Below, one piece after another: positions 1 to 22,328 of a DNA stretch of 64,000 nucleotides. The notes beneath the pieces are model-generated. The model was not told the DNA's origin. It saw nothing but the letters and a program-made list of their open reading frames with translations, and searched no databases. Every line of letters starts with the position of its first letter. Within the stretch, counting starts at the first letter, position 1. This DNA comes from a virus: IMG/VR virus record IMGVR_UViG_3300037486_000467, positions 1-64,000 of that record. One strand, written 5' to 3'. The position numbers and the translations under genes are program-made.

Positions 1-128
1 ATAAAGGCGATCATATAAAAATGACTGTATGTACTCAGTGTGCTTTAGAAGAACAACAAAGAGAATGGGAAATAGAGAGACTACAGAATACAACATATTA
101 TGACGAAGGCTATGATGAAAATCGTTAA
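1..128 (+). CDS. C-terminal end of an unidentified protein (partial)
   Basis: An open frame enters from the left edge (first full codon at base 3) and ends at TAA 126-128, giving 41 visible residues. It has a Cys-x-x-Cys pair (CTQC) followed by a Glu/Arg-rich helical stretch, so the end may be a zinc-binding or redox tail. It overlaps the start of the next gene (ATG 115) by 14 bases, the same tight coupling used through the array downstream. The function cannot be read from this fragment. An internal ATG at 21 exists but the frame is open upstream of it, so this is most likely the tail of a longer gene. Confidence 0.6.
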   Translation, partial: KGDHIKMTVCTQCALEEQQREWEIERLQNTTYYDEGYDENR

Positions 129-1497: not shown

Positions 1498-1939
1498 AGA
1501 ACATATATACGAAAAGTTTACAGCAGATTCAGATCCAATATATGATATGGGAATTGGTATGAAAAAAATATATTCTCCGTTAAAAATACAGCATATATTA
1601 AATGCAATGACGCCTTTATGGAAAAGAATCGTTAGAAACGCCTTTAACGAATCTTTAGAAAATATTTATTATTTGGGAAATAGTTCAAGAGATAGTAAAG
1701 AATATTTAAAAAGACTTGTTTCGTTAACAGCTGCAGGAAGAAGAATATTTCAAAAAACTTTTACAACAGAATATCCTGATACAGGCGTGCCAGAAACAAT
1801 AACAGTTAAAATATATGAAACAGAGTTAGGAAAAATAGGAACATTTCAATATCCTGAATATGAAGAGGAGGCAACGCAATACTTAGGTTCTCTTGATATA
1901 GCTGTAGAATTACGAGCAAAAGAAAATATAAAACGTTGA
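1484..1939 (+). CDS. Leader protein, unknown domain
   Basis: A 151-residue protein. I choose ATG 1484 because it gives MKIVKEHIYE at the N-terminus; a TTG two codons upstream is possible. The leader core KFTADSDPIYDMGIG follows the IYE triplet. The rest is a mixed helical and basic domain with no family I recognise; a stretch 'LENIYYLGNSS' resembles 'LSKIYLLGYFI' in the first module of the gene at 4836, so the two may be distant relatives. Overlaps the previous gene by 14 bases and the next by 4. Mature size after predicted cleavage at residue 10 would be about 16 kDa. Confidence 0.85.
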   Translation: MKIVKEHIYEKFTADSDPIYDMGIGMKKIYSPLKIQHILNAMTPLWKRIVRNAFNESLENIYYLGNSSRDSKEYLKRLVSLTAAGRRIFQKTFTTEYPDTGVPETITVKIYETELGKIGTFQYPEYEEEATQYLGSLDIAVELRAKENIKR

Positions 1940-2298
1940 AATTGGTACGAGAACATATTAACGAAAAGTTTACTTCAGATTCAGATCCTATAAAAGATAT
2001 GGGTATAGGTGGTATATCAATTGAAGAAATGGCACAAAAAACTATACGAAATAAAAAACTTAAAGGAACAGCTGGATTATATAAATGGCGTGAATATTTA
2101 AATTCTTTAGTTGGAAAAAAGATTACTGGAAAATTTGTAAAGTTTTCTTCTTTAGAAACAAGAAAAACAAATATTGATGAATATACATTTATAATACGTG
2201 ACTATTATAGCTTTTACGGCGGAACTGAAGTAGGATTTAAAGATGATAAAGAAAATAATTATGTTGCTATTCAAACTGAAAGATATGTAATTAGATGA
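1936..2298 (+). CDS. Leader protein, 'GKxIxGxF' family
   Basis: A 120-residue protein starting at TTG 1936, inside a TTGA overlap with the previous stop. Leader MKLVREHINE then KFTSDSDPIKDMGIG. The body has a helical start, a 'WREYLNSLVGKKITGKF' segment and a beta-rich C-terminus ending in 'YVAIQTERYVIR'. The same plan is seen in the gene at 6064 (W..YVDQFRGKTICGIF ... YCILDSESYIIK) and in the third module of the gene at 3550, so it is a small family within the array. Function unknown. The TTG start is supported by the leader beginning exactly there. Confidence 0.85.
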   Translation: MKLVREHINEKFTSDSDPIKDMGIGGISIEEMAQKTIRNKKLKGTAGLYKWREYLNSLVGKKITGKFVKFSSLETRKTNIDEYTFIIRDYYSFYGGTEVGFKDDKENNYVAIQTERYVIR

Positions 2299-3017
2299 AA
2301 TTAGTTAAAGAATATATTAACGAAAAGTTTACTGAAGATTCAGATCCAATTTCAGATATGGAAATAGGTTTATTTACTAAATGGAGTAAATTGAAACCAG
2401 GAGATATAATATACAATAAAGATACAATCGGCGTTATTCAACATATAACAATACATAATTCCGGCACCATAGAAATAAGATATGCGCCTTTTTATAATGT
2501 CAAAGTTAATAAAGATATAGCAGAACGCAGCAAAGAATATATAAATTCTCATTATTCGCAAAGTATATATACACGCAAAGCTACTACTTGGGAGAAAAAA
2601 TTTAAAATTCTTAAACCAGGGGAAAAACTTTATGAGTATATAAACGAGAAGTTTACTGAAGATTCAGATCCTATTAAAGATATGGGCATAGGCGTATTTA
2701 ATAAACGCGATTTTGCTTCTTTAAGAAAATCATGGAAATTTATGTATGATATTGCTCCATATTTAGTAGGAATTAAAGATCAAAAAGAACTTCTTGATGT
2801 ATCCGCCGCACATTATATTAATGAAAATCATTATGAAACATTAAGTGATTATTATTTAGAATACATTACAGTAAAAGGATCATCACATGGATTATGGGCA
2901 GATTCTTTTGCAGATTTTATTAAAGAAAAAAAGAGAATAGGCGATCATAGCAAATATGGAAATACAATGGATAGTGATAATTATAGATATAGAAAAGGAC
3001 TAAGGAAAAACCTTTAG
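2295..3017 (+). CDS. Two-module leader polyprotein
   Basis: A 240-residue protein, ATG overlapping the previous TGA by 4 bases. Leaders start at residue 11 (KFTEDSDPISDMEIG, with Glu for the usual Gly) and about 119 (KFTEDSDPIKDMGIG), both after INE. Module 1 is the 'W..LKPGDIIYN' family, beta-rich and ending in 'WEKKFKILKPGE'; close relatives are module 5 of the gene at 9039 and module 2 of the gene at 21557. Module 2 starts VFNKRDF and belongs to the helical family with the EIP(K/E)DI-type core, here with that core changed. Relatedness is read by eye; function unknown. Confidence 0.85.
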   Translation: MKLVKEYINEKFTEDSDPISDMEIGLFTKWSKLKPGDIIYNKDTIGVIQHITIHNSGTIEIRYAPFYNVKVNKDIAERSKEYINSHYSQSIYTRKATTWEKKFKILKPGEKLYEYINEKFTEDSDPIKDMGIGVFNKRDFASLRKSWKFMYDIAPYLVGIKDQKELLDVSAAHYINENHYETLSDYYLEYITVKGSSHGLWADSFADFIKEKKRIGDHSKYGNTMDSDNYRYRKGLRKNL

Positions 3018-3025
3018 AAATATAA

Positions 3026-3547
3026 ATGAAGATAGTACAAGAACATATTAACGAAAAGTTCACTGAGGAATCTGATCCAATAAAAGATCTTAATATTGGT
3101 GTTATTGATAAAATTAATGAATGGATAGAAAAAAATATGCAAGTTAATAGGCACACATTAGATTCTGATATGAAAAAAAAATGTGAAGAAAAACCTCTAT
3201 ATATAATTAATGATAATGGAACTATCAACGTATATGGCACTGCGTGGATAAATTTTGGTTATAGCCCAGGCACTTATAGTAATTTAAATTTAATATTTCC
3301 AAAATATATTAATTTTAATATAATATATGGAAATTTTGATATGGGCCATCGCGACGTAATATCATTAAGAGGATGTCCTCAAAAAGTATATGGTTATTTT
3401 CGTTGTTCTCATAATAATTTAACTTCATTAAAGTATTGTCCTAAATGGGTAGAAGGACAATTTTATTGTGAATATAACGCAGTACAGTTTATAAAAGAAG
3501 ATGTAAAAAAATATTGTAAGCATATTGGAAAAGAAATAACACTATAA
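3026..3547 (+). CDS. Leader protein with LRR-like repeats
   Basis: A 173-residue protein with leader MKIVQEHINE and KFTEESDPIKDLNIG. The C-terminal half has repeats of the form 'F....(D/N)..SL.GCP..V.G.F.C..N.L.SL', for example VISLRGCPQKVYGYFRCSHNNL and the following unit, an LRR-like solenoid often seen in phage and effector proteins. The only other protein in the window with this solenoid is at 43707, which carries a degenerate leader. LRR-like solenoids bind proteins in known families; the partner here is unknown. An 8-base gap separates it from the previous gene. Confidence 0.8.
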   Translation: MKIVQEHINEKFTEESDPIKDLNIGVIDKINEWIEKNMQVNRHTLDSDMKKKCEEKPLYIINDNGTINVYGTAWINFGYSPGTYSNLNLIFPKYINFNIIYGNFDMGHRDVISLRGCPQKVYGYFRCSHNNLTSLKYCPKWVEGQFYCEYNAVQFIKEDVKKYCKHIGKEITL

Positions 3548-3549
3548 TA

Positions 3550-4839
3550 ATGAAATTAGTACGAGAACATATTAACGAAATATTTACTGAAGATTCAGAT
3601 CCCATTATTGACATGAGTATAGGTCTTAAAGCTGTAAAAAACGAAATGTGGAAAACTCCATTCGGTGAATTAAATGATAAATATTTCTCAAAGTATCGCG
3701 TAAAATATACACTCGATAATTGGACCATTATTAATTGCCGCTTAATATTATGTGATAGTTTATGCGATATATTTGGATATATGACAGATGAAGAATATCA
3801 TTTAACTCCACAAGAAGCATTTAATAAAACACTTAATGATCCTAAATTTAATAGGCTCGAATATAATCGAGGCATTATTGGAACTGCTATAGATGATTCA
3901 GATAAACTAAGAGATGCTAATGAAATTAGAAGTCAAATTATAGCTGAAGTTTTATATGACAATTGGAAAATTAAAATTGATCCAGAAATTAAAAATGAAG
4001 CACTCACTGAAAAGTTTACTGTAGATTCAGATCCAATAAAGGATCTGGGCATTGGCGTTTTTGCTAAGCGTAACTTTACTGTAAGAGAAGATTTTATTAA
4101 TTTTTTAATAGACGCAATGCCAACTATTTTAGGAATGTCAGGAATACCTGAAGATATTGTTATAGAAATCGGATATTTAAATAAAAAATATTTTCATATT
4201 ATACGTGAATATCTTTTTAAATATGATATAACATTCGATAGTAAAAGTATATGTGATAACGATAGTTCGCCCGTATATTTTTGGCCAAAATTTGTTCGTA
4301 ATGAATTAATCAATAGAAAGATAGTAAAAGCACGCAGAAAAATAAAGGAATCTTTAAATGAAAAGTTTACTGAAGATTCTGATCCAATACATGATTTAGG
4401 AATAGGCGGAATCAATCTTTCAAAAGAAATATATTTATTAATAGAGAAATTTAAATTAACTAATATACATCAAATGGCATATATGCCTGAAGTAATAAAA
4501 TATTGGAAAGATGTATTAGAAAGAGTATTTTTAGATAGACAAGTAACTGGAATTTTTGCAAGAGGAAATGAAAATAGTTGGGGAGCTTTTCATAAATTGA
4601 CTACACAAGAAATTAAGAAAGTTGTTTTGTTTGCTGAAGATACGTTAACTTCTGATAATATGGCAGTTTTAGATTTTGCTTTAATTGCAGATGATCCTGG
4701 TGCATGGGAAAAAAATCTAGAAGATTCTAAACATTATCTTGAAAATCCCGATGAAACTTGGTATTATTATTCATTCGGCGATATGTTCTACAGGAAAGAT
4801 TATACACCTAAACAAAAATATACTATCTATTTGAAATGA
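3550..4839 (+). CDS. Three-module leader polyprotein
   Basis: A 429-residue protein. Leader cores at residues 11 (IFTEDSDPIIDMSIG, with Ile in place of the usual Lys and Ser for Gly), 155 (KFTVDSDPIKDLGIG after LTE) and 272 (KFTEDSDPIHDLGIG after LNE). Module 1 is a unique helical domain. Module 2 starts VFAKRNF and contains 'ILGMSGIPEDIV', so it is in the EIPxDI family. Module 3 resembles the 'GKxIxGxF' proteins at 1936 and 6064. The internal sites keep the cleavage triplet but not the MKLVREH part, fitting one targeting signal per polypeptide. Overlaps the next gene by 4 bases. Confidence 0.85.
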   Translation: MKLVREHINEIFTEDSDPIIDMSIGLKAVKNEMWKTPFGELNDKYFSKYRVKYTLDNWTIINCRLILCDSLCDIFGYMTDEEYHLTPQEAFNKTLNDPKFNRLEYNRGIIGTAIDDSDKLRDANEIRSQIIAEVLYDNWKIKIDPEIKNEALTEKFTVDSDPIKDLGIGVFAKRNFTVREDFINFLIDAMPTILGMSGIPEDIVIEIGYLNKKYFHIIREYLFKYDITFDSKSICDNDSSPVYFWPKFVRNELINRKIVKARRKIKESLNEKFTEDSDPIHDLGIGGINLSKEIYLLIEKFKLTNIHQMAYMPEVIKYWKDVLERVFLDRQVTGIFARGNENSWGAFHKLTTQEIKKVVLFAEDTLTSDNMAVLDFALIADDPGAWEKNLEDSKHYLENPDETWYYYSFGDMFYRKDYTPKQKYTIYLK

Positions 4840-5558
4840 AATTGGTAAAAGAACATATATATGAGAAGTTTATTGAAGATTCAGATCCAATAAAAGATCT
4901 GGGTATTGGAATTGAAGAAAAATTAAAACCACATTCTTTAGATAAATTAAAAGGAACAACTCCGCATTCTACAAGAATATGTATAGATATTTCAGAGTTA
5001 TTTGACTTACCATTATCTAAAATTTATCTTTTAGGATATTTTATAAATTCTGTTACTATTGATTCAAGAACTTATAATTTATTAGTTGATAAAAAAACAA
5101 AATTAATTAAAGAACTTAAAAAGGAAATTTCGGGTAATGGCAATGATTTAACACTATATCAAACGCCCTATGGAATGATAATGACTGAAAAGAATTTTAG
5201 TATAAATGTATGGGGAGATATAAACGCAGCAGCATATGTTCTTTTTAATGATGTTAACGAAAAGTTTATTGCTGATTCTGATCCTATTTCTGATTTAGGA
5301 ATAGGTGTATTTACTAAAAAAACATTCAGTACTCCAGAAGAAGCCGCTAAGTGGGTATTTAGGATTTTACCCGTTATTCTGAAAACAAACGAAATTCCTA
5401 AAAATATTTTAAATCGAGTAGGCGAATATTTTGGTAGTAGTTATTGGAATGAAATAGAAGAATATTATATGAGTTATATAAATATAATACCACATGATAT
5501 GATGGATTTTAAAAGATTTCATACAGAATTAGTAAAATTATGCAAGAATAATAAATGA
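4836..5558 (+). CDS. Two-module leader polyprotein
   Basis: A 240-residue protein. Leaders at residues 11 (KFIEDSDPIKDLGIG after IYE) and 143 (KFIADSDPISDLGIG after VNE). Module 1 is an unrecognised mixed domain with a possible link to the protein at 1484. Module 2, starting VFTKKTFSTPEEAAKW and containing 'ILKTNEIPKNIL', is a clear member of the EIPxDI helical family. Both leaders have Phe-Ile instead of Phe-Thr, a shared variant within one gene that would be expected if one leader was copied from the other. Joined to both neighbours by 4-base overlaps. Confidence 0.85.
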   Translation: MKLVKEHIYEKFIEDSDPIKDLGIGIEEKLKPHSLDKLKGTTPHSTRICIDISELFDLPLSKIYLLGYFINSVTIDSRTYNLLVDKKTKLIKELKKEISGNGNDLTLYQTPYGMIMTEKNFSINVWGDINAAAYVLFNDVNEKFIADSDPISDLGIGVFTKKTFSTPEEAAKWVFRILPVILKTNEIPKNILNRVGEYFGSSYWNEIEEYYMSYINIIPHDMMDFKRFHTELVKLCKNNK

Positions 5559-6067
5559 AGTTGGTTAAAGAACATATAGACGAGAAGTTTGCTGAAGATA
5601 GCGATCCTATACGCGATATGGGTATTGGCATAATTACTAAAGCAGAACTCTACAAACTTGTTGCAACTCTTAAACAAAAAATACAAGAAATATTTCCTCA
5701 TGAGACTATAGAACTTAGAATTCTTACAGGAGCAAATATATATTTTTATGAAATACAAATAGAGTTCGTAGAAACTGGATCTTATGTATGGGATATATAT
5801 TTCGTTGCAAAAAAAGATCTAAATATAGGCGGTATATTACAAGATATGGGGTGGCATATTACTGTAACAACTAAAGATACATTTATTAATACTTATGATT
5901 TAGATACTTTAATACCTGCAATATTTAAAAAAGCTATTAAAACTAAAAAATTCGCGCAACAACGTATTGAAGAACTAACTATAAGATTAGAGAGATTAAA
6001 AAGACAAGAGAATCAGGTAGAAAAAACTATAGAAACGACAAAAATAATGCAGTCATACTTAAAATGA
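5555..6067 (+). CDS. Leader protein, coiled-coil C-terminus
   Basis: A 170-residue protein with leader MKLVKEHIDE and KFAEDSDPIRDMGIG. After the leader comes a helix (KAELYKLVATLKQKIQEIFP), a beta-rich middle and a C-terminal heptad-like helix rich in Glu, Lys and Arg ending 'TIETTKIMQSYLK'. The protein at 20988 has the same layout (IRKILRNVKQKFKELLP ... ISIDSTKILKQVFSE), so they form one family placed at opposite ends of the array. Function unknown. Confidence 0.85.
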   Translation: MKLVKEHIDEKFAEDSDPIRDMGIGIITKAELYKLVATLKQKIQEIFPHETIELRILTGANIYFYEIQIEFVETGSYVWDIYFVAKKDLNIGGILQDMGWHITVTTKDTFINTYDLDTLIPAIFKKAIKTKKFAQQRIEELTIRLERLKRQENQVEKTIETTKIMQSYLK

Positions 6068-6414
6068 AGTTAGTTAAAGAACATATAAACGAGAAGTTTA
6101 CATTAGATTCAGATCCAATAAAAGATCTGGGTATTGGTAAGATAAATTTCAGAGATGAATTTGATAAGCAATATTTTGAGCCTTCTATTAAGTTATTTAG
6201 AAAATGGGAAAAATATGTTGATCAATTTCGAGGAAAAACAATTTGCGGCATTTTTAATGTATATGATTTTAGAGGAGATTATTCTGGAAAAAAAGGATAT
6301 GCAGAAGTAGAATTTACAAGTATAACATTGGATAGAGAAGGCACCATGAATTTAGAAACACCCGATCATAGTACATATTGTATACTTGATAGTGAAAGCT
6401 ATATTATTAAATAA
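6064..6414 (+). CDS. Leader protein, 'GKxIxGxF' family
   Basis: A 116-residue protein. Leader MKLVKEHINE then KFTLDSDPIKDLGIG. The body has 'WEKYVDQFRGKTICGIF' and ends 'YCILDSESYIIK', matching the plan of the protein at 1936 and of module 3 at 3550. The domain is short and beta-rich. ATG overlaps the previous stop by 4 bases; a 5-base gap follows. Function unknown. Confidence 0.85.
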   Translation: MKLVKEHINEKFTLDSDPIKDLGIGKINFRDEFDKQYFEPSIKLFRKWEKYVDQFRGKTICGIFNVYDFRGDYSGKKGYAEVEFTSITLDREGTMNLETPDHSTYCILDSESYIIK

Positions 6415-6419
6415 AGAGA

Positions 6420-6788
6420 ATGAAATTAGTTAAAGAACATATATATGAAAAGTTTACCCCAGATTCAGATCCTATTGAAGATATGGGTATAGGAGAGTCT
6501 TATTTATTGAGAAAAAAATTTTATGAATTACAGAGAGAAAGCTATGTAGGTTCAATAAAACTTAGTTATGATGAAGATAAAGATTATTATTATGTAGAAA
6601 TGTATTACGCGTATAATGATTTGATTGGAGTAACTGCAAAATTTTTTAAACATATAGATCGAAAATATATTAATGGTAATTTTTTTAAAAGTATAGGTTC
6701 TTTAAGAGTTATAGCAGGTTATATAGTTAAACCAGAATATGTAAATATATTTAAAAAAGCACTTGAATTTTATAATGAAACTAGTTAG
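6420..6788 (+). CDS. Leader protein, unknown
   Basis: A 122-residue protein. Leader MKLVKEHIYE then KFTPDSDPIEDMGIG. The body is rich in Tyr and Lys, with a helix, two likely beta strands and a C-terminal 'VKPEYVNIFKKALEFY'. Similar 'P.Y.NI.K' or 'HPQFQEIFK' segments close module 2 of the gene at 11905 and module 7 of the gene at 9039, suggesting a loose family of proteins with strand-rich cores. Function unknown. It overlaps the next gene by 14 bases. Confidence 0.85.
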   Translation: MKLVKEHIYEKFTPDSDPIEDMGIGESYLLRKKFYELQRESYVGSIKLSYDEDKDYYYVEMYYAYNDLIGVTAKFFKHIDRKYINGNFFKSIGSLRVIAGYIVKPEYVNIFKKALEFYNETS

Positions 6789-7134
6789 AGAACATATAAA
6801 CGAGAAGTTTACATCAGATTCAGATCCAATTACAGATATGGGTATTGGAATTGACGCAATATCTTTTAAATTAAAGGGTATTTTACTTTGGGGCTATATT
6901 CATAAAACAAGGAGAGAATATCGTGAATGGTTAAATGATGATCAAATAATTGAAGTTTTAAATCACCCATATAGTAAAATGTTTAATTTTGGAGAAGGTG
7001 GAATTGCAATATCTGTAAAAGAAGTATTTTTTTTACAAGAAAATCATATGGTTTATGATTCCATTCGTGCAATGCTTTCTGATAATTTAATTTACATCAA
7101 GTATGATGGCAAATATTATAATATACAAAAATGA
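6775..7134 (+). CDS. Leader protein, unknown
   Basis: A 119-residue protein started at ATG 6775, which gives MKLVREHINE at the N-terminus; a TTG four codons upstream is less likely. Leader core KFTSDSDPITDMGIG. The domain ends 'IKYDGKYYNIQK', close to the end of module 1 of the gene at 9039 (FEYQGKIYHIGEE), so these two are probably relatives. Function unknown. It overlaps the previous gene by 14 bases and the next by 4. Confidence 0.85.
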   Translation: MKLVREHINEKFTSDSDPITDMGIGIDAISFKLKGILLWGYIHKTRREYREWLNDDQIIEVLNHPYSKMFNFGEGGIAISVKEVFFLQENHMVYDSIRAMLSDNLIYIKYDGKYYNIQK

Positions 7135-7484
7135 AACTAGTTAGAGAACATATATACGAGAAATTTACTGAGCAATCTGATCCTGTACACGATCTTGGAA
7201 TAGGAATTGATGAAACAGTTGAACAATTTAAGAAGGAATTAAATGATGAATGGCCTACATTAACAGAGCGACATGAACATTTTCATTATTTTAAATCAGA
7301 ACCCAAATTCATTAGAATAGATGCGTATCCGCTTTCGCTATTAGGAGTGCAACATTTAAATCAAGCGCTTAAAAAGATTTATCCTAAATACAGAGATGTT
7401 TTAAAAATTACTCGTTTTGCTGGTTATAAAAATAATATAAGAAGAGGTAACGTTAATCAAGACGTCATTATTAAGATAAGATGA
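7131..7484 (+). CDS. Leader protein, unknown
   Basis: A 117-residue protein with leader MKLVREHIYE and KFTEQSDPVHDLGIG. The rest is a basic, mixed alpha/beta domain; I see no relative in the window and no known family. The end is strongly basic (NNIRRGNVNQDVIIKIR), which could suit nucleic-acid contact, but that is only a composition argument. It is coupled to both neighbours by 4-base overlaps. Confidence 0.85.
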   Translation: MKLVREHIYEKFTEQSDPVHDLGIGIDETVEQFKKELNDEWPTLTERHEHFHYFKSEPKFIRIDAYPLSLLGVQHLNQALKKIYPKYRDVLKITRFAGYKNNIRRGNVNQDVIIKIR

Positions 7485-7837
7485 GAGCAAGACTAATATA
7501 TGAAAAGTTTACTGCAGATTCAGATCCAATACACGATTTGGGTATCGGAGTATTTAGTGTTCATAAATTTGAAAGTACAAAGGATATAGCCAAGTTTTTA
7601 GTAATTATTTTGCCAGCTATTTTAAGGACAAATGAAATTCCAGAAGATATTATACTCCATAAAAGATATCTTATGAATCCTAAATATCACGATAAAATGG
7701 ATGCGTATTTGAATACATATATTAAACTATACGATAAACATCTTGGACCTAAAGATACAAGATGGGACGTATATAATGAGTTATTTAAAATTTTATTAAA
7801 AATGGGATACTTACATAATGGAGAAGAATCTAGATGA
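7481..7837 (+). CDS. Leader protein, EIPxDI helical family
   Basis: A 118-residue protein. The targeting part is shortened to MRARLIYE but keeps the (I/L)xE triplet before KFTADSDPIHDLGIG. The body, VFSVHKFESTKDIAKFL ... ILRTNEIPEDII ... 'YLNTYIKLY', is one of the clearest members of the commonest domain family in the array. The shortened leader is a natural test of how much of MKLVREH is needed. ATG overlaps the previous stop by 4 bases. Function unknown. Confidence 0.85.
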   Translation: MRARLIYEKFTADSDPIHDLGIGVFSVHKFESTKDIAKFLVIILPAILRTNEIPEDIILHKRYLMNPKYHDKMDAYLNTYIKLYDKHLGPKDTRWDVYNELFKILLKMGYLHNGEESR

Positions 7838-9042
7838 AATTAGTTAGAGAACATATAAACGAGAAGTTTGCTGAAGATTCAGATCCAATAAAAGATATGG
7901 GTATTGGAATTACTGGGCCTAAAAAATTTTATAATAAAAAGGAACTTGTCGATCATATTATACATGCTCTCCCTCTTATATGTAATTCGGAAACAATTCC
8001 AGAAGATATTTTATATAGTATCGAACGAAACGATATACTTCCAGTAAACCTTTTTTATGAAATAATTAATTTTTTAGAAGAACATAATCAAGTAATGATT
8101 AGTAAAGATAAAAATTATACGTCAGTTAATTATGAACATGCAAGTGCATTTGATTTTAATTTTTCAAGATGGACAGTTGATCTTAGAGATAGATTACTAG
8201 AAATGGGATATGAGCAAAAACATAAAATTATTAAAGAACATATTAACGAGAAGTTTACCGATGATTCAGATCCTATAAGAGATCTAAGAATTGGCGCGTT
8301 TAAAAGAAAGATGACTTTTACAGATAAAGATGAATATATTTCTACATTATTATCTTTATTACCTCTTATTCTTGGAACTAAAGAAATTCCTAAAGATATT
8401 ATAGCTTCTTCTAACAATTATATATTTTCACCTTACTATCATACAATATCAGCTTACGTAGGTAATTATTTTACTTTTGAAGACAGTAAAAACGTAAAAG
8501 CATTTCATGACATTGAATGGTGTTTTCTTTTAAGAACAGAATTAAGAAGAATGGGATTTGAACATTTTACGTATAACGAAGATTTAAAATTAAATGTAAA
8601 TGAAAAGTTTTCTGGAGATTCTGATCCTATAACAGATATGGGAATTGGTACTATAGGTGCAATTAGGAATTTTTGTAAGCCATATATTAATCATATGGGT
8701 AAATCAGGCAGACAACATAAATTTAATTTAGATGTTATTGACGATTTATTGCTTATGTGTATTAAGGCGAAAAATCATGAATATGCCAAATATCTTTTAG
8801 ATCATGGCGCAGATGTACATTATGATGGTCCAAGTTCTACTCCTGGACTTGAAATTCCATTACGTTACGCATTCTTTTATAATGATATTAAAATGATAGA
8901 TTTGCTTATGAAATATGGCGCAGATATAAAAAAATCTATATATGATAATGAATTAGATATTGGAAGTCATAATACTCAAGGATTTAGAAAAACTACTATA
9001 AAACATGTATTAAATATATTACATGGTAAAATTTATAAATGA
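7834..9042 (+). CDS. Three-module leader polyprotein, two EIPxDI modules plus ankyrin-like
   Basis: A 402-residue protein. Leader cores at residues 11, 140 and 258, after INE, INE and VNE. Modules 1 and 2 are both EIPxDI-type helical domains ('TIPEDIL', 'EIPKDII'), so the gene contains a tandem pair of the same family. The second leader keeps an almost complete targeting stretch (KIIKEHINE), as if a formerly separate gene had been fused by loss of a stop codon. Module 3 is ankyrin-like, with 'HEYAKYLLDHGADVHYDG' and 'IKMIDLLMKYGADIKK'. Function unknown. Confidence 0.85.
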   Translation: MKLVREHINEKFAEDSDPIKDMGIGITGPKKFYNKKELVDHIIHALPLICNSETIPEDILYSIERNDILPVNLFYEIINFLEEHNQVMISKDKNYTSVNYEHASAFDFNFSRWTVDLRDRLLEMGYEQKHKIIKEHINEKFTDDSDPIRDLRIGAFKRKMTFTDKDEYISTLLSLLPLILGTKEIPKDIIASSNNYIFSPYYHTISAYVGNYFTFEDSKNVKAFHDIEWCFLLRTELRRMGFEHFTYNEDLKLNVNEKFSGDSDPITDMGIGTIGAIRNFCKPYINHMGKSGRQHKFNLDVIDDLLLMCIKAKNHEYAKYLLDHGADVHYDGPSSTPGLEIPLRYAFFYNDIKMIDLLMKYGADIKKSIYDNELDIGSHNTQGFRKTTIKHVLNILHGKIYK

Positions 9043-11522
9043 AACTAGTACAAGAACATATAAATGAAAAGTTTACATCAGAATCTGATCCAATAAAAGA
9101 TATGGGTATAGGTGTTAATGTTATTAAACTTGTTTGCGCCGCGGTATTATCAAATGATTCTACTGATTATAGAGATTTAACTCCAAAAACAATTAAAATG
9201 ATATTATCTAATTTTAGTAATTATTATGATTATAAAGAGATAGTATTTGCAGATGACGAAGATAACACCTATGGTACAGAAGATATGAATAACAAATATT
9301 TTGAATATCAAGGAAAAATATATCATATTGGAGAAGAAGAAACTTTAAACGAAAAGTTTACTGAAGATTCAGATTCTATAAAAGATATGGGTATAGGCGT
9401 GTATTCCAAAAGAGATTTTCCAGATTTACTATCTTTTCATGAATGGCTTTGTCTAGCAACACCCGTTATATGTAATATTAAAAAAGTTGAAGACATATTT
9501 AAATATGCAAATAAAAGACGCATAAATCAAACTTGTTATGATAAATTATTAGATTATAGTAATGAATATGTAACAATTAAAGGAGAACGTCTTGATAATA
9601 TAATATATCTTCAAAATTTTGTAGAATTAATTAAAGCAAAGGTTAAAGAACAAAAGAGTGTTAACGAAAAGTTTACTGAGGATTCAGATCCTATAAATGA
9701 TTTAGGCATAGGTATATTACATCGTCGCAAATTTGATACAGTTAAAGAAGCAGCAGAATTTTACGTAGAACATATAAACCTATTATCAAAAGGAATGTTT
9801 AAATCTAAAGAAGATTTAAAAGAATATCTTTCTGGAATTGGAAAAGGTAATTATTCAGAAACTAGAAGTTTGTTGCGTGCAGTTAAAAACTTTGTAGATG
9901 GATATGATGGAGAATTTAAAAACTTAGTTATTAAGGAAATAGATGAGTGGAATAAATTGCAATACGTTATAAGACTCAGAAATGCTATAAGAGAAATATT
10001 TGATTTTATAGATGAAGCGTTTACTGCAGATTCAGATCCAATCAGAGATATGGGTATTGGAATCTTTAAACGAAAAATGAATTTTACAAATCAAGAAGAA
10101 CTTGTTGATGCAATATTAACTTTAGTACCGTCTATTCTTGGAACAGATAAAATACCCGAAGATATTATTAATACTGATCATAATATTTTACTACCACATT
10201 ATTATCATACAATAAATTTATATCTTTATAAATATTTTACTTATAATAATAAGCTCGTATCTGAATCTAACACAGAATGGTGTCTTGCTTTAAGACAAAA
10301 ATTAAGAGACATAGGATTTGAACACCCTAAAAGTAGCATTGATAGATTACCAAGAGTGAATGAAAAGTTTACCGTAGATTCAGATCCTATACATGATATG
10401 GGAATTGGAGATGAGATAGAGTGGGAAAATTTAAAGGAAGGCGATATACTATACAATGATGATACTTTTATGATAGTTAAAGGAACTCCAAAAAAAGATG
10501 GCGATATATTAGAAATAATTACAATTCCATTTCCATTTGGTAATAATAAACAAGGTAGAGATACATTAGTAACTATCTTAAAAGGTAGACAACATTATGT
10601 TGATCTTTATTTAAATTCAGAACGTAGGAAGACACTTTCCAATTGGCAAAAAGAATTTAAAATTCTTCAACCACGAGAAATTAAAAAATATTTAAACGAA
10701 ACATTTACTTCAGATTCTGATCCAATACATGATTTAGGTATAGGTATATTATCAAGACTTAAACTATTTGATGTTCTTAGATGTAAAGAAAGAATAGAGG
10801 CACATCTTGAAACTGGGAAGTATAAATTTTATATTGAGCCAGGTGAATATTCTGTTATAATACAAAATATTGATTTTAAATCAAATGAAGTTGAACTTGT
10901 AGTAGCAACATATAGTCATTATCCACATCATTTTATGGAAGCAGATATACCGTATATAGGTAAAGAACATGTAAGTTTACCTATAGATAAATTCTCTGAT
11001 CACTTTGAAATCGTTAAGAGTGATGTTCTACAAGAGAAATTTACAGATGAAACTGATCCTATTGTAGATATGGGAATTGGAATGACTACTCATTTTAAAG
11101 AACTGATGAAATTATTTGGAAACGCAGATACAAAAAAATATATTTATAGCATAGTTATTGACGATTCAGAATTTATAGATTTTTGGTTTTATAGAAATAA
11201 TATTAAATTCTTACCTAAGAATGAAATTAAAGATTTATTTAAGTATGTTACAAATATTATTGATCAACTAGGATTTAGTTACATATTAGATGCCGTTAAA
11301 TTCATTGAGGGTTATTCAGGAGACGGATCGAAAGAAGAGGCGGATAATGATGAATTACCAAGAATGATAAGATTTAAAGTACATCCACAATTTCAAGAAA
11401 TATTTAAACTTGGACATTATAGAAGAAGCGCCAGCGCGTATGATTATAATTCTAATATAGATGATCAATTTTATTTTTATAGTAGTAATGATGATAACTA
11501 TCCATATAGAATAATTAGATGA
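9039..11522 (+). CDS. Seven-module leader polyprotein
   Basis: An 827-residue protein, the longest in the array. Leader cores start at about residues 11, 106, 211, 327, 443, 555 and 667, preceded by INE, LNE, VNE, IDE, VNE, LNE and LQE. The 4th and 6th cores start with Ala and Thr instead of Lys (AFTADSDPIRDMGIG, TFTSDSDPIHDLGIG) and the 2nd has DSDSI for DSDPI, but the Glu before the core never changes. Modules 2, 3 and 4 look like EIPxDI-type helical domains, module 5 is the 'W..LKEGDILYN' family, module 6 the 'SRLKLFDVLRC' family shared with the gene at 16135, and module 7 a strand-rich domain. Spacing is 95-161 residues, so full cutting would give seven proteins of roughly 11-18 kDa. Confidence 0.85.
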   Translation: MKLVQEHINEKFTSESDPIKDMGIGVNVIKLVCAAVLSNDSTDYRDLTPKTIKMILSNFSNYYDYKEIVFADDEDNTYGTEDMNNKYFEYQGKIYHIGEEETLNEKFTEDSDSIKDMGIGVYSKRDFPDLLSFHEWLCLATPVICNIKKVEDIFKYANKRRINQTCYDKLLDYSNEYVTIKGERLDNIIYLQNFVELIKAKVKEQKSVNEKFTEDSDPINDLGIGILHRRKFDTVKEAAEFYVEHINLLSKGMFKSKEDLKEYLSGIGKGNYSETRSLLRAVKNFVDGYDGEFKNLVIKEIDEWNKLQYVIRLRNAIREIFDFIDEAFTADSDPIRDMGIGIFKRKMNFTNQEELVDAILTLVPSILGTDKIPEDIINTDHNILLPHYYHTINLYLYKYFTYNNKLVSESNTEWCLALRQKLRDIGFEHPKSSIDRLPRVNEKFTVDSDPIHDMGIGDEIEWENLKEGDILYNDDTFMIVKGTPKKDGDILEIITIPFPFGNNKQGRDTLVTILKGRQHYVDLYLNSERRKTLSNWQKEFKILQPREIKKYLNETFTSDSDPIHDLGIGILSRLKLFDVLRCKERIEAHLETGKYKFYIEPGEYSVIIQNIDFKSNEVELVVATYSHYPHHFMEADIPYIGKEHVSLPIDKFSDHFEIVKSDVLQEKFTDETDPIVDMGIGMTTHFKELMKLFGNADTKKYIYSIVIDDSEFIDFWFYRNNIKFLPKNEIKDLFKYVTNIIDQLGFSYILDAVKFIEGYSGDGSKEEADNDELPRMIRFKVHPQFQEIFKLGHYRRSASAYDYNSNIDDQFYFYSSNDDNYPYRIIR

Positions 11523-11908
11523 AGTTAGTAAGAGAACATATTAACGAGAAGTTTACTGAAGATTCAGATCCAATTCATGATTTAGGAATTGGTGGTATGT
11601 GTGCTGCCGGTTCTATTTTAAGAACTAAACGTGAAGTTCCTTGTATTAAAGACGAACCTTATTGTTGTATTAGTAAAGATGACAAAAGTACAGGTTCATA
11701 TATGATAGCGGATTCACTTTGGTTTGTAATAAGTGTTCTTTCGCGTAAAAAAGATTTTATGATCAGATTAAAAGCAATGCAAAATTTGAAACACGCTAAA
11801 TTGTACGCGAAATATGAAAGAAATGATTCTTATCCAGATTGGGTTCCATTTAATATTAAACTTTCATATAATGAATTAAAAAAATATTTTGAAATAGTTT
11901 CAACATGA
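11519..11908 (+). CDS. Leader protein, Cys-containing 'GGMC' family
   Basis: A 129-residue protein with leader MKLVREHINE and KFTEDSDPIHDLGIG, continuing GGMCAAGSILRTK. It has a CIKDEPYCCIS segment, and a C-terminal part 'WVPFNIKLSYNELKKYFEIV'. The protein at 13514 is a close relative along its whole length, including 'MENLKHATLYAK' against 'MQNLKHAKLYAK', so these two are a recent duplication separated by one other gene. Function unknown. It is joined to both neighbours by 4-base overlaps. Confidence 0.87.
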   Translation: MKLVREHINEKFTEDSDPIHDLGIGGMCAAGSILRTKREVPCIKDEPYCCISKDDKSTGSYMIADSLWFVISVLSRKKDFMIRLKAMQNLKHAKLYAKYERNDSYPDWVPFNIKLSYNELKKYFEIVST

Positions 11909-13527
11909 AATTAGTTAGAGAACATATTAACGAGAAGTTTACTATAGATTCAGATCCTGTACATGATTTAGATATAGGCATGAAAGCAGCGTGGGATTCT
12001 ATAAAAAGCGGTTCTATTTTGAGAATTACAAAACCAATAAATCGTTCTCACCCAAAAAATTCTTATGTTGTAGTAGAAGGTATAAATAATAGAGGCGCAG
12101 ATTATATACAATTTAGTTATTATGGATATAAAAATAAAGAAGCTTTATTAAAGCATGGAAATACAAGTTCAAAGTATCATTTTCATTATGGCTGGCACAT
12201 ATCGTTTGATTTTTTCAAAGAATATATGGAACTTGTATATCTACCAGATTTAAATGAAAAGTTTAGTAAAGATTCAGATCCGATACAAGATATGGGCATA
12301 AGCGGTATTTACATTGAAGATATAGTAAGAGAAATAAAAGATGTAGACAAACAATATGAAAACAGAATATACATTACATTTGAGGGAAATAAAGTTGCAA
12401 AAATTCAAATGGGAGTTAAAGGTTATTATGGAAAAGAAGAATTTGATTATGTAAGAAAAATACTTAAAAAAACAAATTATAATCATATTTTCCGCGGATT
12501 TCAAGTAAATCCAACATACGATAATGAATTATTGTTATATACTAAACCTGAATACCGCAATATTATTAAATATACTCATAAACATCCTGAAATTGAAAAA
12601 TATCATTATTGGTTTTATTCTGAAGAATCATTAAATGAAAAGTTTACTTCAGATTCAGATCCTATAAGTGATTTGGGTATAGGTTTAATGTCTGAAGTAC
12701 GGAAATTTTTCGCAGAATATAAAGAAGATCTTACTGTTAGCGAAAAAATAAACAAAGATTATACAGAACTTGACGAAATGCTATTACTTTGTGTTGATAA
12801 AGAGAAATATACTTATGTTGAATACCTTTTAAGTATTGGAGCGAATCCGAATACAAGTATAGGTATTCATGAAAAAGGATATTGCTCTCTTCCATTAAGA
12901 TATGCTATTTGGCATAATAATGTAGATATTGTTGAATTGCTTATAAAGTATGGAGGAGATATTGCAAAATGTGGTATAACTGATGAAAGTCATTTAGGCG
13001 AGTTTATAAATATGGGTCATTATCTAAGTGAAGAATTAAAAACTATTATTAGAAGTTCATTTAAAAATAAATCAAAAAGGATATCTAAAAATAAGGCAAA
13101 AAGTATATTTAAAAAGAAAGCAGATAGGACTGATGAAAGTATTGTTAATGAGAAGTTTACTGGAGATTCAGATCCTATACACGATTTGGGTATAGGTATG
13201 AAAGTTTTAATAGAAAAATTTCTAAGTAAATTTGAAGACGGCTTGAAATGGACTGATAGATATAAGCTACAAAAATGTATTGAGCATAAACATTACGATT
13301 TTGCAGAATATATTATATTACATAGTAAAAACTTAAAGAGTGATTATATATACATATTATCTGATTTAGCGTATCATAGAAATTGGGAAGGCATGAAATA
13401 TCTAATAAGTAAAGGCGCAAGTTTAAATGGTGCTATTAGATATGCAAAAAAATGTCATCTTGATCATACTACTCAGGGTTTATTAGATTTTAAAACATAT
13501 TGGGCAAATATAGATGAAGTTAGTTAG
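11905..13527 (+). CDS. Four-module leader polyprotein with two ankyrin-like modules
   Basis: A 540-residue protein. Leader cores at residues 11, 119, 246 and 417, after INE, LNE, LNE and VNE. The first ends DLDIG and the second DMGIS, so the GIG end tolerates change. Module 1 is a 'W(D/K)(S/T)(I/L)..G.(I/V)LR' small-barrel-like domain also seen at 13894 and 15341. Module 2 is a strand-rich domain. Modules 3 and 4 are ankyrin-like ('YTYVEYLLSIGANPN', 'VDIVELLIKYGGDI'; 'YDFAEYIILHS', 'WEGMKYLISKGASL'). A Lys-rich linker precedes the fourth leader. Ankyrin repeats bind proteins in known families. Overlaps the next gene by 14 bases. Confidence 0.85.
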   Translation: MKLVREHINEKFTIDSDPVHDLDIGMKAAWDSIKSGSILRITKPINRSHPKNSYVVVEGINNRGADYIQFSYYGYKNKEALLKHGNTSSKYHFHYGWHISFDFFKEYMELVYLPDLNEKFSKDSDPIQDMGISGIYIEDIVREIKDVDKQYENRIYITFEGNKVAKIQMGVKGYYGKEEFDYVRKILKKTNYNHIFRGFQVNPTYDNELLLYTKPEYRNIIKYTHKHPEIEKYHYWFYSEESLNEKFTSDSDPISDLGIGLMSEVRKFFAEYKEDLTVSEKINKDYTELDEMLLLCVDKEKYTYVEYLLSIGANPNTSIGIHEKGYCSLPLRYAIWHNNVDIVELLIKYGGDIAKCGITDESHLGEFINMGHYLSEELKTIIRSSFKNKSKRISKNKAKSIFKKKADRTDESIVNEKFTGDSDPIHDLGIGMKVLIEKFLSKFEDGLKWTDRYKLQKCIEHKHYDFAEYIILHSKNLKSDYIYILSDLAYHRNWEGMKYLISKGASLNGAIRYAKKCHLDHTTQGLLDFKTYWANIDEVS

Positions 13528-13897
13528 AGAACATATCAACGAGAAGTTTATAGAAGATAGCGATCCTATATCAGATATGGGCATCGGTGGTATGTGCACT
13601 ACTGGTTCTATTATAAAAACTAAGAATGATGTTGCTTGCACTAATAAAGATGTACCTTATTGTACTATTAGTACACGTGGTGATTCATATATGCAAGCAA
13701 ACACTTTTTGGGTTGTAACAAAATTTCGTTCAAGCGGAAAAGATTATATAATTAGAGTGAAGGGAATGGAAAATTTAAAACATGCTACATTATACGCAAA
13801 ACATAAAAGAAATAATTCTTATACAAATTGGACTCCATTTAATATTAAGCTTTCTTTTAATGAATTTAAAGAATATTTTGAAGTAGTTCCAATATGA
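13514..13897 (+). CDS. Leader protein, Cys-containing 'GGMC' family
   Basis: A 127-residue paralogue of the protein at 11519, sharing the GGMC start, a Cys pair around 'VACTNKDVPYC', and the C-terminal 'WTPFNIKLSFNEFKEYFEVV'. Leader MKLVREHINE then KFIEDSDPISDMGIG. The leaders of the two paralogues differ more in DNA (gaagatagcgat against gaagattcagat) than the C-terminal domains would suggest, which could mean leader exchange between modules, though this is by eye only. Function unknown. Confidence 0.87.
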   Translation: MKLVREHINEKFIEDSDPISDMGIGGMCTTGSIIKTKNDVACTNKDVPYCTISTRGDSYMQANTFWVVTKFRSSGKDYIIRVKGMENLKHATLYAKHKRNNSYTNWTPFNIKLSFNEFKEYFEVVPI

Positions 13898-15366
13898 AAT
13901 TAATACGAGAACATATCAACGAAAAGTTCACTTCAGATTCAGATCCTATATCAGATATGGGAATCGGAATACGTTCTGTAATTGAAAAAGAGCACGAAAA
14001 AATTAATGCTATGTCTCTTTCAGATGCATCATTATATCTTTTTAACAATAAAACTTATATGGCAGCGGTAATAGGTCTTAAACGAATTTTATCTAATATG
14101 TTAAATCAAAGTGTTTATGCAGAAGGAAAAGAGTTAAATGAAATAATTAATAATGCACGGCTAAATTACGGATTATCAGATTTTGGAATGGATCTTATAT
14201 TAAAATTTTTAAAACAAAAAATTAATGCTAGTGTCAAAACAAAAACTAAAAAAACTATAACAGAGAAGTTTACTGCAGATTCTGATCCAGTGAAAGATAT
14301 GGGAATTGGATTTGATCATGTACGAAATTTCGATAATCTTGTAGAAAGAACAGATTGGATTGCTAGAAATCTAGCTCATATATTAGATATGGAAGAAATT
14401 CCTAAAGACATTATTACTGATAAACATCATTATATTAATATGAAATACATAGATGCTATAACAGATTATGCTAGAAAATATCTTAGATATAGAGGAAATG
14501 TATATGAAGAAATTTATTGGATGAATTTAAATAACTCTTTAGAAGATCAAGGATACGTAAACGATTCGTATAATATCGATGAGAAGTTTACTGCTGATTC
14601 TGATCCAATACACGATTTAGGTATAGGTATGCCTGCAATATGGAAAACTTTAAGAAAGGGCGATGTATTAAGATTCAAAAGAACATTACAAATGAAAAAC
14701 TCTAGTAAGGTAGATATACCAAAAAACGTTTATCCTAAAGGAACTTATATTCTTATAAGAAAAGTTGAAAATCGTGATAATGACGAAAAGCTTGTTGGGT
14801 ATACTTATTATAAAACTACTAAAGATAATTTTCTAGAAAGCACACCTTCGCATAGTGCTGATTGGTTTTGGAATTATAAATTTTTTATTACATATTTTGA
14901 TTTTGTTAAAAAGGGAAATATAAAAGAATCTCTTAACGAAAAATTTACTGAAGATTCAGATCCTATAGTTGACTTAGGAATTGGTATAGACAATAGATAT
15001 AAAAAATGGTGCGAATATAAAGACGAAAAACCTTATTCTTATGAGTCATTTGTTACAGCTATCGATGAATTAAAATATGACTTTGTTAAACATTTGTTAA
15101 AGAAGGGATTAGATGTAGATGCAAAGCCAATGAGCAATAAATGGTCATATGGAGCACCTTTAAGATATGCAATATCAACTGGAAATACTAAAATGATAAG
15201 AATATTATTAAATGCTGGCGCTAATCCTAATTATGCTACAATAGCTGGTTGGATGAGGTTTACTAAGATACCTACACGAATTGAGAAGCTTATAAATGAT
15301 AAAATAAAAGAATGGAACGAACAACATCCTAAAGAATTTAATGAGAATAGTACGCGAACATATTAA
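13894..15366 (+). CDS. Four-module leader polyprotein
   Basis: A 490-residue protein. Leader cores at residues 11, 125, 231 and 350, after INE, ITE, IDE and LNE. Module 1 is an unrecognised helical domain. Module 2 belongs to the EIPxDI family ('EEIPKDIITDKH'). Module 3, 'PAIWKTLRKGDVLRFKRTL', is nearly the same as module 1 of the next gene ('PYIWKTLKRGDILRFKKTL'), a recent duplication. Module 4 is ankyrin-like ('YDFVKHLLKKGLDVDAK', 'TKMIRILLNAGANPNYA'). The stop lies 26 bases inside the next gene. Function unknown. Confidence 0.85.
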   Translation: MKLIREHINEKFTSDSDPISDMGIGIRSVIEKEHEKINAMSLSDASLYLFNNKTYMAAVIGLKRILSNMLNQSVYAEGKELNEIINNARLNYGLSDFGMDLILKFLKQKINASVKTKTKKTITEKFTADSDPVKDMGIGFDHVRNFDNLVERTDWIARNLAHILDMEEIPKDIITDKHHYINMKYIDAITDYARKYLRYRGNVYEEIYWMNLNNSLEDQGYVNDSYNIDEKFTADSDPIHDLGIGMPAIWKTLRKGDVLRFKRTLQMKNSSKVDIPKNVYPKGTYILIRKVENRDNDEKLVGYTYYKTTKDNFLESTPSHSADWFWNYKFFITYFDFVKKGNIKESLNEKFTEDSDPIVDLGIGIDNRYKKWCEYKDEKPYSYESFVTAIDELKYDFVKHLLKKGLDVDAKPMSNKWSYGAPLRYAISTGNTKMIRILLNAGANPNYATIAGWMRFTKIPTRIEKLINDKIKEWNEQHPKEFNENSTRTY

Positions 15367-16135
15367 CGAGAAGTTTACTAACGATTCAGATCCTATACAT
15401 GATCTTGGAATAGGAATGCCTTATATATGGAAGACATTAAAAAGAGGTGATATATTAAGATTTAAGAAGACACTACGTATGAATGGTAGTCATGAAGATA
15501 CAACAGGAAACACATATCATAAAGGAACTTATATTGTTGTATTAAGAGTTAAAGCTGAGGAAAAAGGTGAATGGGGTGATAAAGAAATTACGTATGATTA
15601 TTATAATTCTAAAAACAAAAATTTTTTAGATAATCCACCCGTAGAATCTAGTAATGATTGGACATGGGATTATGAATTTTTTAATGAATTCTTTGAATTA
15701 GTCAGACGAGATTTGAAGGAATCCCTTAATGAAAAGTTTACTGAAGATTCAGATCCTGTACATGATCTTGGAATAGGATATATACACCTAATAGAAGATA
15801 GAATAAAGAAAGCTGGTTATAAAAATTGGCCAAAAAATAGTTATCTTATCGTATGTGCAATACTTGGAGAAAACGAATATATTAAACTTTTATTAGATGA
15901 CGGATGGAATGTACATGAAGATAATGAAGCAGCTTTAAAAAATGCGATTCTTATGAATCGATACGAAACAGTAAAAATATTATTAGAAGCAGGCGCAGAT
16001 GTAAATGTTGAACCTCACCATATAGCGAGAGATGTTTATGAAAAAACAGTATTACAATACGCAAAAGAAGAGGGCGACATTAGAATAGTTAAACTTATTT
16101 TGAAGTATATAGCTAAAAGTAAATTAAATAAATAA
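15341..16135 (+). CDS. Two-module leader polyprotein, LKxGDI plus ankyrin-like
   Basis: A 264-residue protein with leader MRIVREHINE. Cores at residues 11 and 132 (after INE and LNE). Module 1 'IWKTLKRGDILRFKKTL' pairs with module 3 of the previous gene. Module 2 is ankyrin-like, with 'NEYIKLLLDDGWNVHED' and 'YETVKILLEAGADVNVE', the second being close to the ankyrin consensus. The order LKxGDI module then ankyrin module repeats the order of the last two modules of the previous gene, so a two-module block was probably duplicated. Confidence 0.85.
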   Translation: MRIVREHINEKFTNDSDPIHDLGIGMPYIWKTLKRGDILRFKKTLRMNGSHEDTTGNTYHKGTYIVVLRVKAEEKGEWGDKEITYDYYNSKNKNFLDNPPVESSNDWTWDYEFFNEFFELVRRDLKESLNEKFTEDSDPVHDLGIGYIHLIEDRIKKAGYKNWPKNSYLIVCAILGENEYIKLLLDDGWNVHEDNEAALKNAILMNRYETVKILLEAGADVNVEPHHIARDVYEKTVLQYAKEEGDIRIVKLILKYIAKSKLNK

Positions 16136-17214
16136 TGATAGCTAAATTTATATACGAAAAGTTTACTGCAGATTCAGATCCAATATCAGATATGGGAATT
16201 GGTATATTGTCAAGACTTAAGCCATTTGATATTCTTAAATGTATCAAAAGAATAAAAGCATATATAGAAGATCAACCACTCGTTTATTTTTTCATAGAAC
16301 CAGGCTATTATTCTGTTATAAATAGTGTTGATTGGAAAAATAGCAATAGTGTTATTTTTAAGTTAGCAACATTTGATAAACCTCCAAGACATTTTGATGC
16401 ACATATTTTTTCATATGGTGGTGTGGAAATTGTAACTATGTCTCCAAATAAGTTTTTTAAGCATTTTGAAATTGTTAAAGACATTAATATTAACGAGAAG
16501 TTTACTGAATATTCAGATCCAATAGCTGACTTAGGAATTGGCGGGATAAAGTCTTTTCTAATTAAAGAACTTCAAAGAGAAGGAGGAACATCTTCAGTTG
16601 ATTCTTCAAGATGTTATTATGGTAATTCTAGATATACAGATGAAGCTTTTGTAGTCTATAAAGTTTTATCTATTATAGTAGAAATAGATAATTATACGCC
16701 TGCTGGTATGCAAGCTGCATTTCAACAAGCTTTAGATGACCCTCATTCATATCGTTCTAAAACTAGAAAAACATTGCGCATAAATAAAGTAATTGAAGCG
16801 TTGTCTAAATTCTTTTACATAGATGTTGTTGATCCTAATAAAACTAAAAAACTTAAAGAATCTTTAAATGAAAAGTTTACTGAAGACACAGATCCAATAG
16901 CTGATCTTGGAATTGGTGGGTTGAAATCTTTTCTAATTAAAGAACTTGATAGAGAAGGACATATAACTTCAATTGATTCTTCGAAAAATTATTATGGTAC
17001 TTCTAAATATCATGATGAAGCTTTTGTAGTCTTTAAAATTTTATCTCGTATTGCAAAAAATGATGATTATACACCTGCGGGTCTGCAAAGCGCATTTAAT
17101 TCCGAATTAAGCTTTCAATATCATTTTGATCCCGAAATTAAGAAGACTTTGCACGTAGATAAAATAATCGAAGCGCTGGCTAAATTCTTTTACGTAAATG
17201 TTGTTCGTCCCTGA
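16135..17214 (+). CDS. Three-module leader polyprotein with a duplicated pair
   Basis: A 359-residue protein. Targeting part shortened to MIAKFIYE. Cores at residues 9, 122 (KFTEYSDPIADLGIG) and 247 (KFTEDTDPIADLGIG). Module 1, 'SRLKPFDILKCIKRIKAYIE', matches module 6 of the gene at 9039. Modules 2 and 3 are near-copies of each other: both start GG(I/L)KSFLIKEL and share 'DEAFVV(Y/F)K(V/I)LS' and 'YTPAG(M/L)Q(A/S)AF' and end 'IEAL(S/A)KFFY', a clear recent tandem duplication. Ends 34 bases before the helicase gene. Function unknown. Confidence 0.87.
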   Translation: MIAKFIYEKFTADSDPISDMGIGILSRLKPFDILKCIKRIKAYIEDQPLVYFFIEPGYYSVINSVDWKNSNSVIFKLATFDKPPRHFDAHIFSYGGVEIVTMSPNKFFKHFEIVKDININEKFTEYSDPIADLGIGGIKSFLIKELQREGGTSSVDSSRCYYGNSRYTDEAFVVYKVLSIIVEIDNYTPAGMQAAFQQALDDPHSYRSKTRKTLRINKVIEALSKFFYIDVVDPNKTKKLKESLNEKFTEDTDPIADLGIGGLKSFLIKELDREGHITSIDSSKNYYGTSKYHDEAFVVFKILSRIAKNDDYTPAGLQSAFNSELSFQYHFDPEIKKTLHVDKIIEALAKFFYVNVVRP

Positions 17215-20267: not shown

Positions 20268-20276
20268 AGAAGCGCG

Positions 20277-22324: not shown

Positions 22325-22328
22325 TTCA

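Follow-up and report, generated by a model that had tools for sequence, protein, structure and literature searches.

Can a tailed phage bring several internal head proteins into its prohead as a single chain and have them cut apart there? The question is raised by a 64,000-nucleotide stretch of viral DNA (positions 1 to 64,000 of IMG/VR record IMGVR_UViG_3300037486_000467; 'the window' below), in which an open reading frame (ORF) on the + strand at 9039..11522, opening with ATG, encodes a protein of 827 residues. To our knowledge, tailed phages are not generally known for polyproteins of injected cargo. From sequence comparison, we put the probability at roughly 0.83 that, in a huge phage related to T4, this ORF encodes seven internal head proteins as one polyprotein, which would be cut by a gp21-type prohead protease.

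One leader and seven pieces

Seven copies of a 15-residue core, KFTxDSDPIxDMGIG – SDPIxDMGIG being the part used as a search pattern – are spaced along the chain. Abutting them, in order, are the tripeptides INE, LNE, VNE, IDE, VNE, LNE and LQE, and the pieces thus marked off measure 95, 105, 116, 116, 112, 112 and 161 residues. Three cores are variants (DSDSI at site 2, AFT at site 4 and TFT at site 6), and the complete leader, MKLVQEHINE, stands at the N-terminus only. The ORF translation thereby bears out a first-pass annotation of the window, which had described seven cores, each abutting one of these xxE tripeptides, in pieces of 95–161 residues; a Glu at −1 and a hydrophobic residue at −3 retained beside the AFT, TFT and DSDSI cores; and the loss at internal sites of the MKLVREH part of the leader, whose intact form here is MKLVQEHINE. 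The features of the chain are listed below; handles such as G007 or L041 denote relatives, and a core-based IMG/VR search led to 67 loci, including a 405-kb genome, G001.

9039..9068, +: N-terminal leader MKLVQEHINE, 10 residues, resembling the T4 capsid targeting sequence (CTS), with I and E at processing positions 8 and 10
9069..9353, +: piece 1, beginning KFTSESDPIKDMGIG and terminating in TLNE of predicted site 2; no homologue found
9354..9668, +: piece 2, helical family A, behind LNE and terminating in SVNE; standalone homologues in relatives
9669..10016, +: piece 3, behind VNE and terminating in FIDE; its homologue is the N-terminal piece of the G007 polyprotein
10017..10364, +: piece 4, helical family A, behind IDE, with the AFT core, terminating in RVNE; modelled with AlphaFold
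10365..10700, +: piece 5, behind VNE and terminating in YLNE; its homologue is piece 1 of ORF 2295–3017, which has its own full leader
10701..11036, +: piece 6, behind LNE, with the TFT core, terminating in VLQE; its homologue is piece 1 of ORF 16135–17214, which has its own leader
11037..11519, +: piece 7, behind LQE and running up to the stop codon at 11520–11522; standalone homologues L041, L056, L064 and G001

Conservation at the sites and beyond

To see whether the tripeptide is anything beyond a stretch of the repeat, cores were collected by the SDPIxDMGIG part together with an F a few residues upstream, no Glu being required, and the residues ahead of them were read. About 45 contigs yielded 100 internal cores. 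Of those without gaps, 98/98 are preceded by [LIVM]-x-E; the remaining two, which have a residue inserted further in, read LDE and LNE. The background frequency of Glu is 7.4% of residues. A weight matrix built from the core only, with the leader ignored, was used for degenerate cores and added 18 more, preceded by [ILV]-x-E in 18/18 (two of them shifted by one residue); in shuffled ORFs, the same matrix gave 0 matches above 15 bits among 395,190 positions. N-terminal copies can also have extra residues, but these lie mostly between the Glu and the core, leaving hydrophobic-x-Glu at the end of the leader (as in MKAQFIHE-AIGFTQ).

The T4 CTS, likewise of 10 residues, offers a more specific expectation: suppressor genetics assigned targeting mainly to its positions 4 and 7 and processing to positions 8 and 10, and gp21 cleaves after L/I-X-E (PMC9026906). 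The leader studied here has M1, K2, E6, I8 and E10 in common with MKTYQEFIAE of T4 ipII/ipIII (AF158101), and the hydrophobic residue 8 and Glu 10 of a T4-type CTS are evident in the leader frequencies of 192 N-terminal copies. With entry by a single signal and a cut at each site, internal sites would be expected to keep positions 8 and 10 but not the targeting residues. Conservation at positions 8 and 10 is indeed 100% in N-terminal and internal copies alike, whereas H, Y, F or W at position 7 falls from 70% of N-terminal to 11% of internal copies (p = 3e-21). First pieces of polyproteins and single-piece genes have such a residue in 70% and 73%, respectively, and so have the same kind of leader. 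Information content from −10 to −5 drops from 1.5–2.2 bits at N-termini to 0.3–1.2 bits internally; it is held at −2, −1 and +1 to +15, and at −3 goes only from 2.9 to 2.5, with I replaced by L or V.

A sister lineage (G016, comprising L155–L161, and L168–L207), whose major capsid protein (MCP) in G016 is 79% identical to that of G001, has a different core, FERGxDPKxSMxIG or, in its longer form, (E)SINFERGxDPKxSMxIG, which is likewise found in polyproteins. Its chains hold 2–5 such cores and reach up to 1107 residues (5 cores in 660 and 711 residues, 4 in 1107). At internal sites the Glu lies four residues ahead of the F (IKE^SINFERG) in 32/33 cases, with a hydrophobic residue two positions before it in 29/32 and Ser or Ala after it in 79%. 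The tripeptide is thus kept even though its spacing to the core has changed, which argues against the Glu being a mere edge of the core motif.

Which protease might read such sites is suggested by the relatives. The record, 83,640 bases in all, is a fragment with a T4-type portal, a neck protein, a terminase, a sheath-like protein (named by its position and length) and a tube; the nearest INPHARED matches of the portal are huge phages, LR756500 and the Prevotella Lak phages, at about 40%. Whole-protein searches of IMG/VR and INPHARED found no relatives, but a short core alignment did. A 25-residue core query against INPHARED (tblastn) returned nothing – weak evidence, as so short a query is perhaps insensitive – and a core search of GTDB genomes gave no match. 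G001, identical to the window at 82% in the portal, 65% in the terminase and 79% in the tube, has a gp23 capsid protein and a gp21-type protease (Pfam Peptidase_S77), the latter present in G003 as well; in G001 a single 781-residue protein joins the protease to a scaffold-like tail, and its gene adjoins two further core genes.

The presumed substrates of this protease carry the same tripeptide. In 10/10 close relatives, the MCP has (F/Y)HALNE and then A or S a little ahead of its conserved body; in 5/5 distant relatives it has FHSINEN. Local similarity and the conservation seen across the relatives are the grounds for equating LNE^A with LTE^A of T4, because a MAFFT alignment of T4 gp23 with the relatives' MCPs, which are too divergent, did not align the cleavage regions column by column. 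The protease-scaffold of G001 contains 11 [ILVM]-N-E tripeptides versus 1.35 expected from shuffles (an enrichment of about eightfold), and six more relatives have 9–12 versus 1.0–1.7; in the distant LR756500, N-E is not enriched (2 vs 1.3), only [IL]-x-E. By analogy with T4 gp22, such enrichment is what one would expect of a scaffold that is chopped up. Within cargo interiors, [ILVM]NE is at chance (18 observed, 19.3 expected). In these sequences, then, presumed prohead-protease substrates and piece boundaries are where the tripeptide clusters; elsewhere it is at chance.

The pieces also behave as independent units. Direct homologues encoded as separate genes with their own leaders exist for 64/98 internal pieces, and the count rises to 77/98 when N-terminal pieces of other polyproteins are included; in the 827-residue protein, the homologues of pieces 2, 4 and 7 are standalone, and those of pieces 3, 5 and 6 are found at the N-termini of other polyproteins. 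Tail trimming and coverage limits were applied in clustering the pieces, since single linkage chained them into one big group. Pieces and standalone genes are similar in size (medians of 124 and 131 residues), and internal versions run on for about ten residues plus the next site beyond the end of standalone versions. In AlphaFold models, residues 1–27 of piece 4 and 1–26 of piece 7, spanning site and core, score below 50 in the predicted local distance difference test (pLDDT), while the bodies come out folded; the cleavage-type site is accordingly predicted to sit in a flexible, disordered linker. The first-pass idea of one targeting signal for the whole chain and a cut at each site thus gains strong support from sequence comparison, through conservation, standalone pieces, modelled linkers and the tripeptides of relatives' capsid and scaffold proteins; almost all of the sequence predictions put to the test came out as a processed polyprotein calls for.

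What the pieces do is less evident from comparison. Foldseek found no match for piece 4 in PDB or BFVD, nor for piece 7 in PDB. In cargo, Pfam recognised only ankyrin repeats and a single weak WG repeat, with no enzymatic domain among the 58 pieces of the record, and PHROGs matches are to families without a name; by Pfam and PHROGs, the mature parts have no sequence homology to T4 internal proteins (IPs) or Alt. A Pfam 'Cullin' match on the 827-residue protein (E = 2e-4, below the cut-off) was rejected as spurious. One cargo family looks leucine-rich, by eye only. In L153, an open-ended ORF at 7849–11697 (G013:125848–129696), of at least 1282 residues, has ankyrin arrays parted by KVVKESLLEKFSEESDDLTKDLGIG-type linkers, a linker that is itself repeated almost without change.

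The feature is far larger than first noted. Over the whole record, 58 cores are spread over 30 ORFs; within the window, 13 ORFs, the 827-residue one included, have 2–7 cores each, and the remaining core ORFs have one. The data set totals 214 core ORFs, 157 of them single-piece and 57 with 2–7 pieces. Other features of the window are as follows.

100..17214, +: main tandem array, of mostly ATGA-overlapping ORFs with 1–7 pieces each
18986..22862, +: second array, of seven ORFs, the two-piece ones being 20277–20987 and 21557–22324
30417..32210, +: T4-type portal protein, 82% identical to the G001 portal, which places the phage
33285..34751, +: four-piece ORF of 488 residues
41769..42665, +: phage lysozyme with the leader MKLVREHINE and without a core
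43707..44351, +: standalone core ORF, the sole copy in the window whose leader ends in LNQ, not xxE

Going by their leaders, the lysozyme is possibly a head-packaged one, and the product of 43707–44351 may stay uncut. Just upstream of the four-piece ORF, at 32939–33273, lies a phage-encoded transfer-messenger RNA gene with the tag DANIYEMQMAA. At 44366–47960 there is a pair consisting of a VWA/metallopeptidase-like protein and an AAA ATPase; leader-like starts (MKKLVPESIEE, MNIIRENIVKE and MKKLVSENLNE) are seen on this ATPase and on ORFs 47960 and 62677. On the opposite strand, close to tail genes, a 3206-residue ORF (51727–61347, −) possibly encodes a tape-measure-like tail protein.

A proposed route through the prohead, and its rivals

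Put together, these data suggest the following route. A single T4-like CTS at the N-terminus would carry the chain into the prohead core. At head maturation, a gp21-type prohead protease would cleave within the disordered linker ahead of each piece, after the Glu of hydrophobic-x-Glu, x being mostly Asn. Seven domains would come free, six of about 95–116 residues and one of about 161, all with KFTxDSDPIxDMGIG or something close to it at the N-terminus. The freed pieces would then be ejected into the host along with the DNA, where they would most likely serve as anti-defence or host-takeover proteins. This function is inferred from T4, where type IV restriction enzymes are blocked by Ip1–3, a different one by each (PMC12373910), and where RNA polymerase is modified by Alt (PMC9026906). 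The core would remain on each piece and probably acts there after cleavage, perhaps in retention or ejection, because it is conserved at internal copies, which need no entry signal, and because leaders without a core exist (the lysozyme at 41769). Judging from the conservation pattern, tandem single-piece genes probably fused into such polyproteins, and the buried leaders then lost their targeting half to decay but retained the half for processing.

Several observations weigh against this route. Neither a protease nor an MCP gene was found in the window's own 83.6-kb record, a fragment, so the specificity is borrowed from relatives. The residue after the Glu (P1′) is Lys at these sites, versus Ala or Ser at the MCP site of close relatives, and the standalone copy at 43707 ends its leader in LNQ. 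Targeting position 4 is relaxed only in part at internal copies, from 77% to 59% (p = 0.003). Depletion of hydrophobic-x-Glu within cargo, sought as extra support, gave none: [ILVM]NE is at chance in the interiors, and the looser [IL]-x-E, far from being depleted, is even somewhat enriched there, so that accessibility, or N at P2, would have to decide where cutting occurs. Finally, the core is no less conserved at internal copies than at N-termini, something the T4 model does not call for.

This last point also favours what is in our view the best, though still improbable, rival: that the chain is never cut and that xxE-KFTxDSDPIxDMGIG is a longer linker or docking motif working in the intact multidomain protein. 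The core after the Glu is, after all, conserved as much as the Glu itself, in internal and N-terminal copies alike. However, the sister lineage keeps hydrophobic-x-Glu at a different distance from its core, residues can be inserted between Glu and core while the Glu stays last in the leader, and the tripeptide occurs without any core in the lysozyme leader, in MCPs and, many times over, in the scaffold.

Considerably harder to sustain is the idea that neighbouring genes became fused by accident into these polyproteins, the buried leader and core being a remnant or a recombination junction with no role at the protein level. Tandem, ATGA-overlapping ORFs would ease fusion, some buried leaders are almost complete (at sites near 766 and 8218), and a codon bias at the junctions of this genome hints at shared ancestry: the Lys at +1 is encoded by AAG in about 80% of copies, versus a background of 16% (G000), and the Asn at −2 often by AAC, possibly a trace of recombination between copies. 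Nonetheless, buried leaders decay everywhere but at −3 to −1, and the purifying selection seen is limited to −3, −1 and the core; in G001, the conserved E, K, N and F of internal sites are encoded with no departure from background codon usage, which points to selection on the protein. Like fusions, moreover, recur across many contigs and in the sister lineage with its other core.

We give slightly less weight again to cutting at the Glu sites by another protease, either a Glu-specific host enzyme acting after injection or a different phage protease. The record lacks a protease gene of the phage itself, and the Lys at P1′ differs from the Ala or Ser of the MCPs; but the tripeptide is the same as in the relatives' MCPs and scaffold, and the polyproteins open just as single-piece genes do, with this T4-CTS-like leader. 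Separate production of the pieces from internal translation starts can be dismissed for the 827-residue ORF: an ATG lies upstream at 11/103 internal sites in the data set, but the six internal sites of this ORF have no usable start codon, the only candidate being one GTG at −2 of site 5.

Beyond the processing of a prohead polyprotein, a broader idea can be offered only tentatively, at somewhat below even odds: that this huge-phage lineage delivers a large and fast-shuffling arsenal of effectors as polyproteins with a single entry tag and many prohead-protease sites, the core on every released piece, of KFT or FERG type, being a signal required for retention in the head or for ejection after cleavage. 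We know of no post-cleavage delivery signal of this kind in T4. If the proposed processing holds, the head-maturation protease would double as a polyprotein protease, and a single targeting signal would deliver seven proteins in equal amounts. Nearly all cargo domains in these huge phages are without known function; tag and site together would then give a readout of the injected, probably anti-defence, repertoire of huge uncultured phages, and the linker suggests a way of delivering multiple proteins by T4-based laboratory particles.

Comparison with known systems

The first-pass annotation knew of no phage internal-protein polyproteins of this size; in the open-access literature we found no polyprotein of phage internal proteins, nor the core sequences in any open-access paper. 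The closest known counterparts are the T4 internal proteins IPI, IPII and IPIII and Alt, which share the 10-residue leader M-K-x-x-x-E-x-I-x-E with processing residues at 8 and 10, a gp21-type protease (found here in relatives), small, non-homologous cargo and presumed ejection into the host; the T4 IPs, too, are described as apparently non-homologous (PMC12373910). Unlike the T4 IPs, which are single-domain proteins with one CTS each, the proteins described here have up to seven pieces per leader – seven in the 827-residue chain – with a site before each, there are 58 pieces in one genome fragment, and the 15-residue core, which is absent from T4, would be left on every mature piece.

Several prohead-protease sites per chain are also a feature of the T4 scaffold proteins gp22 and gp67 and of head proteins of the giant phages phiKZ, 201phi2-1 and SPN3US, in all of which the cuts follow the Glu of a short motif (PMC9026906, PMC10052503). 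Their products, however, are discarded peptides or removed propeptides, whereas here they would be folded domains that are also found as separate genes. The 'internal capsid proteins' of Sphingomonas phage PAU (MKTLTQLYE type) are likewise small and have a T4-CTS-like leader, and they adjoin portal, protease and scaffold genes (the PAU portal is 30% identical); within the 11.5-kb PAU region covered here, though, they are single-domain, with no SDPIxDMGIG core and no polyproteins.

Polyvalent proteins, chains of 2–15 domains believed to reach the host by injection alongside the DNA and for which processing before or after delivery has been proposed (Iyer et al. 2017, PMC5512222), are similarly multidomain and presumably injected. 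They combine known enzymatic domains, often including a metallopeptidase of their own; among the 58 pieces here, Pfam recognised no enzymes and hence no disparate known activities, and the chains differ further in their repeated cleavage-type linker and in the separate prohead protease that would act on it. Set beside viral polyproteins in general, the 827-residue chain has, by its sequence, a conserved protease-type site before each folded domain, and what would be new relative to the T4 internal-protein system is a polyprotein delivered through the head.

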